Positions 15,203 through 18,320 of a stretch of 64,000 nt of DNA are shown one piece after another (position 1 is the first letter of the stretch; every line of letters begins with the position of its first letter). The notes beneath the pieces were generated by a model. That model had not been told where the DNA came from and ran no database searches. It saw only the letters and a program-made list of their open reading frames with translations. Position numbers and translations under genes: made by a program. This DNA comes from Bdellovibrio sp. SKB1291214 (lineage in GTDB: Bacteria > Bdellovibrionota > Bdellovibrionia > Bdellovibrionales > Bdellovibrionaceae). The stretch is taken from NCBI RefSeq assembly GCF_002209355.2, contig NZ_CP106855.1, positions 744,001 to 808,000 on the forward strand. Direction: 5' to 3'.

Positions 15203-15299
15203 AGAAATGTAACCAGTTTCCCTCTCCGTTAAGCTTTTACAACTTGCAAACGCCAACGTTTGTTTGTTGAATAGCGGAAACCACTTAGAGGGGGATCTC

Positions 15300-15587
15300 A
15301 TGAATAAATTCTTCGCTGCTACTTTGATCGCTTTGGGTTTCTGCTTTACTGCACAAGCCAACGAAATCGTTATGCCTGAACTTCCAGTTGTACAAGCTTC
15401 TGAAGTTTACGCGACAGCCGCTGACCAAGCTGCTGAAGCTACATTGTTCAAAACTCAAGGTAAGTACTGCTGCTACGAAAGCCATGGCGGTGGTTTCTGT
15501 GAGTTGTCTGCATATTACAATGTTGGCACTCCTTGCAAATGCTATAACGGTGGTAACAACTCTATCAGCGGTCACGTTTGCAAATAG
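15300..15587 (+). CDS. Secreted six-cysteine peptide, first of three tandem paralogues
   Basis: A 95-residue precursor: signal peptide MNKFFAATLIALGFCFTAQA, an acidic/alanine-rich spacer of about 35 residues, then a compact C-terminal domain (about 40 residues) with cysteines spaced CC-x8-C-x11-C-x-C-x12-C. The two genes downstream share the same pattern. Six cysteines with an adjacent pair and a CxC step are typical of knotted, disulfide-rich miniproteins. GAGGGGG lies 5-6 bases before the ATG. The spacer may be a pro-region. No named family is recognised; role in predation, defence or cell-surface structure is open. Confidence 0.75.
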   Translation: MNKFFAATLIALGFCFTAQANEIVMPELPVVQASEVYATAADQAAEATLFKTQGKYCCYESHGGGFCELSAYYNVGTPCKCYNGGNNSISGHVCK

Positions 15588-15626
15588 TTTTGCGCTAGTT
15601 TCCGAATAGTTTGTAATAAACTGCCT

Positions 15627-15709
15627 CGGCCATAAGTCAGTCGCTCGCATGTTCCGCAACACAGTATCTTGCGGAAACAAAAGCTTGAGCGAAAATAGAC
15701 TTGTGGCCG
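15627..15709 (+). ncRNA. Three-tier nested inverted repeat (possible structured leader or RNA)
   Basis: Three co-axial helices are readable: CGGCCATAAGTC (15627-15638) with GACTTGTGGCCG (15698-15709), TCGCTC (15641-15646) with GAGCGA (15687-15692), and TGTTCCGCAA (15650-15659) with TTGCGGAAACA (15669-15679, one bulge). The element lies between the first and second six-cysteine genes and ends 22 bases before the next ATG. It could be a 5-prime regulatory structure, a processing site or an intergenic repeat. The T-rich tail (GTTTCATTTTC) is too broken for a confident terminator call. Confidence 0.5.
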
Positions 15710-15731
15710 TTTCATTTTCAAGAGGCAATTT

Positions 15732-15950
15732 ATGAACACCCTTGCTCTTCTGCTCATCACTCCTTTGTTCCCCGTTGCAAATCAAGCTTCTGTGTCTTCA
15801 CCTGTGTATGTTCGAGATGATCATGATCGCGTTGGCGTTTGTTGTTCTGGAAATACTCAGTGCGCATGGCCTGCGAACTTTCCGAACGGCAGTTATTGCT
15901 ATTGCAGCTACAATGGCCAAATTTCACCAGGAACCGTTTGCGGAAGATGA
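15732..15950 (+). CDS. Secreted six-cysteine peptide, second of three tandem paralogues
   Basis: A 72-residue precursor with signal peptide (MNTLALLLITPLFPVANQA) and a C-terminal domain with spacing CC-x5-C-x11-C-x-C-x11-C. This matches its neighbours although the rest of the sequence differs. There is almost no spacer between signal peptide and domain, so this is the minimal form of the family. AGAGG is eight bases upstream of the ATG. A nested inverted repeat precedes it. Function unknown; the conserved cysteine frame shows selection on a disulfide fold. Confidence 0.75.
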   Translation: MNTLALLLITPLFPVANQASVSSPVYVRDDHDRVGVCCSGNTQCAWPANFPNGSYCYCSYNGQISPGTVCGR

Positions 15951-15980
15951 TTTCTGCAACCATTGATTAAGGAGGATTAT

Positions 15981-16295
15981 ATGAGAAAGGCACTTACCAC
16001 AGTCGCACTGGCTCTTGCTTTCTCTTTTGCTGCGAATGCGGCTCCGCAATCACAGCTCCCTGAAGGACGTCCACTTTTCCCGATCCAAACACAAGCATCA
16101 GGCTTAATGAGTACGACTGAAGAACAAGAAGAATTAGACATGGCCAGACAGGACGAGGCCGACACCAAATACTATTACGGCAATAAATGTTGTACGAATT
16201 ATGGTTGGTGTTATCTCAACCAATGGGCACCAATTGGTTGGAACTGTTACTGCTACAGCTGGGGCTGGTACTACTACGGCAGAGTTTGCTATTAG
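15981..16295 (+). CDS. Secreted six-cysteine peptide, third of three tandem paralogues
   Basis: ATG 15981 follows AAGGAGG by six bases. Signal peptide (MRKALTTVALALAFSFAANA), then a Glu/Asp-rich spacer of about 50 residues (TTEEQEELDMARQDE), then a domain with spacing CC-x5-C-x11-C-x-C-x11-C that is unusually rich in Tyr and Trp. The acidic spacer next to an aromatic disulfide domain resembles a pro-peptide/mature-peptide layout. It is the last gene of the cluster, followed by a terminator. No known family recognised. Confidence 0.75.
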   Translation: MRKALTTVALALAFSFAANAAPQSQLPEGRPLFPIQTQASGLMSTTEEQEELDMARQDEADTKYYYGNKCCTNYGWCYLNQWAPIGWNCYCYSWGWYYYGRVCY

Positions 16296-16805: not shown

Positions 16806-17146
16806 CCAATCCTCTTTTTGTTTATGTCAGATTTTCTTGTTATGAACTTAAGATCAAGTGAAGATTCCGACGTGTGCTTTCCGTCAGATGATTGCAAAAT
16901 TCCAACGATCACAAATGAAAAAAGGCACCGAAATATTCTCGCGACGTACCCTCAATAACAAATATAGCGGCGTGTTTTCACTCTAGTATTCTCGGCGTGA
17001 GACGTTTCTCGAACTGTTTTGAGAAAATGATGTCCACCACTTTGTAGGAAAAGAAAATCGAGTTATTCTGTGAAAGTTGAACCGAGGGCCTGTTAGACTC
17101 GACTTGTTCGGGTGAATGCTACGGGGCCAGCTACAGGAGGACAGTG
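16806..17146. other. Gap with no convincing gene
   Basis: About 340 bases between the Ig-like gene and the 14-codon ORF. A frame on + from 16827 (about 44 codons) lacks any SD and I do not call it. No terminator or RNA fold that I can name is visible. The region must contain the promoter of the leftward gene and possibly of the small ORF. Confidence 0.5.
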
Positions 17147-17191
17147 ATGAAACATCGTATCCACGACCATCATGACGAAGCACCGAAGTGA
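17147..17191 (+). CDS. Possible 14-residue His/Asp-rich peptide upstream of the riboswitch RNA
   Basis: ATG 17147 has AGGAGG six bases upstream and opens a 14-codon frame ending in TGA, encoding a peptide with four histidines and three aspartates (MKHRIHDHHDEAPK). SD quality and spacing are as good as for any real gene here. The peptide is too short for family recognition. It could be a leader peptide or a chance match. Nothing but non-coding sequence follows before the c-di-GMP RNA. Confidence 0.3.
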   Translation: MKHRIHDHHDEAPK

Positions 17192-17300
17192 CGAGCGTCC
17201 AATAGTTTATTAAAACGAGGTTCAGTGTTCAGGCCTCGCTAAAAAATGATGAGCAGGAACGATTGGATTCTAAAGATAACTCAAAGGAGGTTCCTAGGGT

Positions 17301-17310: not shown

Positions 17311-17526
17311 AGGATTTAGATCCTTCCTTTGCCTCAAGGCAAACTATGGGAAACCATAGGGCGCAAAGCTACAGGGGCTTCACTGCCAGCCAGCTGCCAA
17401 AGGTCACAGAGTACCTAAGGGAACTTAGAGGTGTGCAAAATGGAAGGTCTTTTTATTACAAAGGATTGGTTTCATTCCCCTCGCCTAGGAGCTATCAATG
17501 ATGATTATTCCTAGGCACTTTTTTTT
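17311..17526 (+). ncRNA. Stand-alone c-di-GMP-I (GEMM) riboswitch RNA, merRNA-like
   Basis: The core of a GEMM-I aptamer is readable: closing helix CCTTTG (about 17325-17330) / CAAAGG (about 17398-17403), the conserved GGCAAAC, a helix capped by a GNRA loop (TATGG-GAAA-CCATA), the invariant GCGCAAAGC joining segment and the GGGGCTTCA..GCCAGCCAGCTGCC arm. The transcript runs on for about 80 bases to a strong terminator (17483-17526). No gene follows on the same strand; the next is antisense DUF488. A highly abundant, gene-less c-di-GMP-I RNA of this kind was described in Bdellovibrio attack-phase cells as merRNA and proposed to buffer or store c-di-GMP. The match here is from memory of the motif and context. 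Confidence 0.85.
17483..17526 (+). terminator. Terminator of the riboswitch RNA
   Basis: GCCTAGGA (17483-17490) and TCCTAGGC (17509-17516) form a perfect 8-bp stem followed by ACTTTTTTTT. A gene-less aptamer with its own terminator defines a self-contained RNA. Confidence 0.85.
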
Positions 17527-17573
17527 CCTTTTTCTCTTCTGATTAAATCACACAATTCGTAGGTTTCGGTACA

Positions 17574-17710
17574 CCCAGATTGCTGGGTAGACGTGCTTGC
17601 ATAACGCCGACACAGCGTCGTGCTTCGCCGTGGCGCCTTTGGCGGGTGCGCGCCTCCATGCGCCCACGGAGGTCGGCTTTTGTGCAAGCACGTCTACCCA
17701 TCAATCTGGG
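17574..17710. repeat. Large GC-rich inverted repeat with 28-nt arms
   Basis: Arms 17574-17601 and 17683-17710 (CCCAGATTG.TGGGTAGACG and its complement) match at 27 of 28 positions. The 81-base loop contains further complementary pieces (GCCGAC..GTCGGC, CGTGG..CCACG), so a branched cruciform or RNA is possible. It sits in the gap between the riboswitch RNA and the DUF488 gene and is more GC-rich than its surroundings. I found no ORF with an SD inside it. Confidence 0.75.
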
Positions 17711-17834
17711 CGTGCGAGTTCTTCGTCTTTGGACTTATTAGAAGGGAAAAAGGAAAATAAAGTCCTTGTTGGCTTCGTTCGGGGATATCGTCTTCGGTCG
17801 CTGAGGCTTCGCCCATTCCTTCTTCATGGAGTAT

Positions 17835-18320
17835 TTAGGATTTTGCTAGCCCCAGGGATTTGGTTTTTGGGAGGACGTTTATGTCTTTTACTTTGGTTTC
17901 GGGAAGTTTGGTTTTTATTTTCTCTGTTAAGTAGTGGCGGTGGCAATCGGTGGCTTCGTTTTCGTAGCATAGGAGGGCTGATCGTCCTCTTTTGCTTGAG
18001 AGTTCTATGACTTCTTCTACTTGTTTGGGGTGCTTCGGTAGGATTTTTGTTTTGTAGTCGTTGAACATTTTTTTGCGGGTGATGAGATGTTCTTTCGCGG
18101 CTTTTCTCCAGGCGGATGGCACGCCTAATTCTTTACCTAAATAACTGTATTCAATCCCAACTTTTTGAAGTTCAGCGGCTAGCTTATTTTTTGAGAAGCC
18201 TTTTTTACGACTCACAGGATTCCGACGAATATCAATGATCCGCTTGATCTTGTTCTTAACAAGCCCCGCAACAAACTCATCAATATCACACCCCTCATAA
18301 CCCACAGTATAGATCGTCAT
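17835..18320 (-). CDS. DUF488 family protein
   Basis: A 161-residue cytosolic protein. It has the family N-terminus MTIYTVGYEGCDIDEFV, the RIIDIRRNPVSRKKGF segment and the C-terminal LLCYENEATDCHRHYL motif, in which C-x-E and CHR are the most conserved residues. The biochemical role of the family is not established. ATG 18320 fits the conserved start; an ATG seven codons upstream has no better SD. Terminator from the mltD unit lies just upstream. Confidence 0.85.
   Translation of the reverse strand: MTIYTVGYEGCDIDEFVAGLVKNKIKRIIDIRRNPVSRKKGFSKNKLAAELQKVGIEYSYLGKELGVPSAWRKAAKEHLITRKKMFNDYKTKILPKHPKQVEEVIELSSKRGRSALLCYENEATDCHRHYLTEKIKTKLPETKVKDINVLPKTKSLGLAKS

Follow-up and report, generated by a model that had tools for sequence, protein, structure and literature searches.

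Sequence comparison indicates that the Bdellovibrio merRNA carries two tiny conserved genes flanking its c-di-GMP sensor

The merRNA of Bdellovibrio has until now been called non-coding. When we compared merRNA loci from 89 genomes, the evidence pointed to two very short conserved genes within it, one on each side of a c-di-GMP sensor. The work started from a window of 64,000 nucleotides of Bdellovibrio sp. SKB1291214, in which we consider the merRNA, about 450 nt long, to be probably a tiny messenger of two genes separated by a c-di-GMP-I aptamer. The proposed order of elements would be promoter, ribosome site, micro-ORF1, linker, P0 hairpin, aptamer, a hairpin over a second ribosome site, micro-ORF2, and terminator. 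The aptamer, the terminator, the single copy, and the shared location close to mrp and to a gene for a LysM transglycosylase are established by comparison, and evolutionary signs indicate that both micro-ORFs are translated. A preliminary description had seen here a gene-less riboswitch, followed by a terminator and not by a gene; this does not hold, as two conserved micro-ORFs flank the aptamer.

The same description had recognized a c-di-GMP-I (GEMM-I) aptamer, and the Rfam covariance models bore this out. Positions 17328 to 17401 of the plus strand match RF01051 over the full model (positions 1 to 87) with 60.6 bits against a cutoff of 35 (E = 2.2e-9 for 64 kb). This is the sole Rfam match at the gathering threshold within the 64-kb window and the single RF01051 copy in the 3.68-Mb genome. 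The c-di-GMP-I core is conserved in the sequence, and P1 can be closed by pairing CCTTTG (17326 to 17331) with CAAAGG (17398 to 17403), so that the aptamer including P1 covers 17326 to 17403. A full-length match was also obtained with RF03167 (c-di-GMP-I-GGC), but its score of 53.5 bits lies under the cutoff of 59 and the aptamer was not assigned to that family. The RNA shares with RF01051 riboswitches the full-length aptamer match above the cutoff; unlike the usual members, which precede a long gene, it has micro-ORFs as neighbors, and it carries G, not A, before CGCAAAGC. This base (17361), presumably a ligand-contacting position, is G in the clade of the window and in 18 of the 89 loci, and A in 63; with G instead of A at this contact, the ligand affinity may differ. 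Adjoining the aptamer, the P0 hairpin (AGGAU-UUAG-AUCCU, 17311 to 17324, plus strand) changes its stem letters by genus and keeps its pairing (AAGGA/UCCUU, AUACGG/CCGUAU, and AUAAAC/GUUUAU, compared by eye); this and the other hairpins reported here come from single-sequence folds and reading by eye.

The perfect 8-bp terminator attributed to the RNA is likewise present in the sequence and in relatives (17483 to 17526, plus strand). Its arms, GCCTAGGA (17483 to 17490) and TCCTAGGC (17509 to 17516), enclose a loop of 18 nt and are followed by T8 (17519 to 17526); the pattern scanner missed it because it allows loops of 3 to 8 nt. Just past the terminator, positions 17572 to 17714 form an imperfect inverted repeat of 143 bp. 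The inner portion, about positions 37 to 110 of the repeat, recurs at 12 other sites of the genome with 78 to 94% identity, and the repeat may therefore be a dispersed element. The closest long ORFs flanking the RNA are both encoded on the minus strand. The downstream ORF contains a DUF488 domain, and a LysM/SLT protein comes after it. Since c-di-GMP riboswitches of the antisense type are reported to be over-represented (PMC9943018) and a convergent minus-strand gene comes next downstream, the riboswitch might act as an antisense element on that gene. We regard this as extremely improbable: the RNA stops at 17526, whereas the end of the gene lies at 17835, without the overlap with an opposite-strand gene that would place the element among antisense riboswitches, and the downstream neighbor differs between relatives.

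A sequence search of 60 relatives gave 46 genomes with one match each. One relative, genome G006, we take to be B. bacteriovorus HD100. The single aptamer of G006 (1,073,868 to 1,073,951, minus strand) lies within the published merRNA (1,073,741 to 1,074,185, minus strand; PMC3627812), and the window aligns with HD100 along the entire merRNA length. By its orthologous locus and full-length similarity, the element that had been called merRNA-like is thus an ortholog of merRNA itself, sharing with it the aptamer position, promoter, and terminator. By its published ends, the HD100 RNA begins 234 nt upstream of the aptamer start and finishes 210 nt downstream of that start, with the 3' end at the T-run of the terminator, and a promoter-like TTGAAA-N18-TATCCT has its -10 element ending 17 nt ahead of the published 5' end. 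Aligned with it in the window is TTGTAG - 16 nt - TATTCT (17042 to 17069, plus strand), a weak match to the consensus that is absent from the pattern-scan list; no FliA-type promoter pattern was found in the window. From the full-length alignment, the RNA should span about 17076-17086 to 17526. The interval originally given, 17311 to 17526, contains the aptamer and the terminator but is too short, as both sequence conservation and the published HD100 transcript reach about 230 nt farther upstream than the aptamer, and the RNA is expected to begin about 230 nt ahead of 17311.

Karunker et al. published merRNA in 2013 as non-coding, without a conserved downstream ORF, and as not conserved outside Bdellovibrio (PMC3627812). 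We find instead two conserved micro-ORFs, both within the published HD100 transcript, and aptamer-plus-terminator RNAs in six families. As the coding signatures are also present in the HD100 merRNA, it is the description as non-coding that is corrected, and the assignment to merRNA is intact. With stricter filters, by which weak matches are lost, RF01051 was detected once each in 59 of 66 genomes of the family (all 20 genera), 89 of 141 of the order, and 116 of 291 of the phylum, and never more than once per genome in these sets. By eye, nearly all of the 89 order-level loci have a terminator-like hairpin with a T-run about 60 to 190 nt past the aptamer and no long same-strand gene in between; loci L044 and L046 reach a contig edge before any terminator. 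An Mrp-ATPase-related gene lies upstream in 40 loci and a LysM-transglycosylase-related gene downstream in 39, across several families, and 11 loci have both within the fetched stretch. More distant phylum members (L108 to L114 and L116 to L123) show the aptamer in a different setting, mostly with a CAAAGGGGG-type tail, and several of them have after the aptamer what reads as a queE-type protein start (EIFHSLQGE). Elsewhere in the window, three small adjoining plus-strand ORFs (15264 to 16295) with signal-like N termini have similar Cys/Tyr/Trp-rich C termini and gave no Pfam match.

Micro-ORF1 (17147 to 17191, plus strand) has 14 codons, MKHRIHDHHDEAPK, and a strong ribosome-binding site, AGGAGG, at 17135 to 17140 of the same strand. 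About 64 of the 89 loci, in five families, have a related ORF; the scan gave 67 candidates, from which L042, L046, L047, and L057 were dropped as unrelated and to which L066 (MRRVFNHNDKAPK, with a weak ribosome site) was added. The predicted peptide resembles RIHDHHDEPPK or HNDKSPK within the family, ends in LDPPPK or LDPPPE in other families, and is the divergent MRTHEHHDDELK in HD100. Residues R, H, D, and K are invariant across 35 loci. Changes counted on the tree at codon positions 1, 2, and 3 were 48, 34, and 80 for a class of 35 loci (P = 2e-5) and 19, 19, and 62 for a class of 24 (P = 4e-9). For the last 12 codons in a set of 32 loci, they were 34, 19, and 62 (P = 1e-5 after correction), and the third-position excess was absent from five other 36-nt segments of merRNA that served as controls in that set. 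ORF1 was not found in 8 of the 20 genera of the family, and the aptamer and terminator persist in loci without it. Upstream of its aptamer, L006 has two consecutive Pro-Pro-Pro micro-ORFs, MAKVKIFRLDPPPE and MKLHSKQWNLFPPPI. Farther along the RNA, AAAGGAGG (17283 to 17290, plus strand) is a conserved ribosome-site-like element without a consistent start codon: a related GGAGG-type element occurs in 77 of the 89 loci, only 12 of which have a start codon 3 to 12 nt after it.

Micro-ORF2 (17440 to 17514, plus strand) has 24 codons, MEGLFITKDWFHSPRLGAINDDYS. Its GAGGTG ribosome site (17428 to 17433, plus strand) is held in the 3' arm of a hairpin with a GGAA loop, read from the sequence at 17412 to 17433 of the same strand, and folding predicts hairpins here in most relatives. 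The ORF runs from ATGGAAG to an FHSP core and fills most of the tail between aptamer and terminator. In relatives, it is usually 14 to 18 codons long and in most ends at or near FHSP; the stop codon abuts the terminator stem in most species, and in the clade of the window the ORF extends into the stem. The length of ORF2 is highly variable in the family, and of the 15 length changes inferred, 13 preserve the frame as multiples of three (P = 3e-5), compared to 4 of 16, 3 of 14, and 3 of 25 in three other variable segments of merRNA. None of the 33 distinct variable parts contains an in-frame stop, whereas across 2,000 shuffles the stop-free parts averaged 13 and never exceeded 22 out of 33, with the caveat that 25 of the 33 are stop-free in each other frame too. 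Genera without ATGGAAG have short ORFs of their own with similar ends (for example, MERFYSP, MSLENRFHSP, and MLFNTIQKFHSP); the exceptions in the family are L016, L031, and L060, which have no ORF2 frame from the usual start. In L005 and L017 (family f6), the aptamer is followed by a ribosome site and an ATG, whose frame reads as poly-proline inside the terminator loop.

We found no third-position excess in ORF2, because its DNA core, GGATTGGTTTCATTCCCC (17463 to 17480, plus strand), is nearly invariant, almost without synonymous change. Such invariance makes a role at the RNA level likely in addition, and part of the conservation of ORF2 is, judging from this pattern, RNA-level. The tail for which no role had been known thus appears to be largely a ribosome-site hairpin and micro-ORF2, with a frame kept across the family, which answers that question in large part. 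The almost invariant DNA of the GGTTTCATTCCCC core might also suggest a small RNA that acts in trans by pairing through this core. A search with one 13-base seed gave no fully complementary match in the rest of the genome, and sites with one mismatch numbered two against three for the reversed control pattern, which leaves trans action highly unlikely.

The abundance of the RNA has been explained differently. The authors of the 2013 paper proposed, and themselves labeled as speculation, that merRNA stores c-di-GMP in attack phase; as a non-coding reservoir, it would release the ligand on prey entry and its ORFs would be incidental. In attack phase, merRNA reaches 2,038,479 RPKM, about 5000-fold over growth phase (PMC3627812), and host-independent stator mutants have less of it according to a later published paper. 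However, the abundance is published for HD100 only, and neither the third-position excess of ORF1 nor the preserved frame of ORF2 is expected of a purely non-coding RNA, so we judge a reservoir with incidental ORFs improbable. Somewhat less improbable, though still unlikely, is a mixed form in which the aptamer has the functional role, in storage or sensing, and the micro-ORFs merely load ribosomes that protect the RNA against decay. Strong ribosome sites, the ORF2 stop adjoining the terminator in most species, and the retention of aptamer and terminator where ORF1 is absent fit such loading, but loading alone would not need the conserved peptide residues of ORF1 (R, H, D, and K).

Within the two-gene messenger, we tentatively propose that the aptamer most likely serves to control micro-ORF2, or the stability of the RNA, in cis. 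As expected from its family, the aptamer would bind c-di-GMP, and binding would alter either the yield from micro-ORF2 or how long the RNA persists; on closure of P1 by c-di-GMP, access to the ORF2 ribosome site was expected to shift. When P1 was forced or forbidden in equilibrium folding, this access was unchanged (lower with P1 in 29 of 56 loci), in a calculation that leaves out the energy of the ligand, tertiary contacts, and folding during transcription. It is this absent effect, in a limited calculation, that keeps our support for cis control or RNA stability tentative. The contrary statement, that the riboswitch is unable to control a neighboring ORF in cis, is wrong or unproven, given the adjacent micro-ORFs. 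Storage of c-di-GMP, which the data do not require, may be a second consequence of the high abundance and can coexist with cis control. A switch in which CCCCUUAG of ORF2 pairs with CUA-AGGGG of the aptamer was rejected, because CCCC is retained in the tail of loci whose aptamer has AGGGA (by eye).

Pro-Pro-Pro before a stop codon and Pro-stop contexts slow ribosomes. With Pro-Pro-Pro before the stop in distant ORF1 and Pro-stop at the terminator in ORF2, it is conceivable that merRNA holds ribosomes, the abundant RNA parking them in attack phase and c-di-GMP acting on their release; we consider this very unlikely.

No prior report of ORFs in merRNA was found in the literature searched, with most subscription journals outside its reach. 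ModT, a raiA-motif RNA of Clostridioides difficile (PMC11706538), is also a widespread structured RNA outside ordinary mRNAs and belongs to a different RNA family from merRNA. In attack-phase Bdellovibrio, merRNA is reported to rank among the most abundant RNAs, while ideas about its role have been speculative since 2013. Two micro-ORFs make this role concretely and cheaply testable and shift the question from the function of a gene-less riboswitch to the function of its peptides or its ribosomes. They also serve as a warning that "orphan" riboswitches may precede genes too short for annotation.
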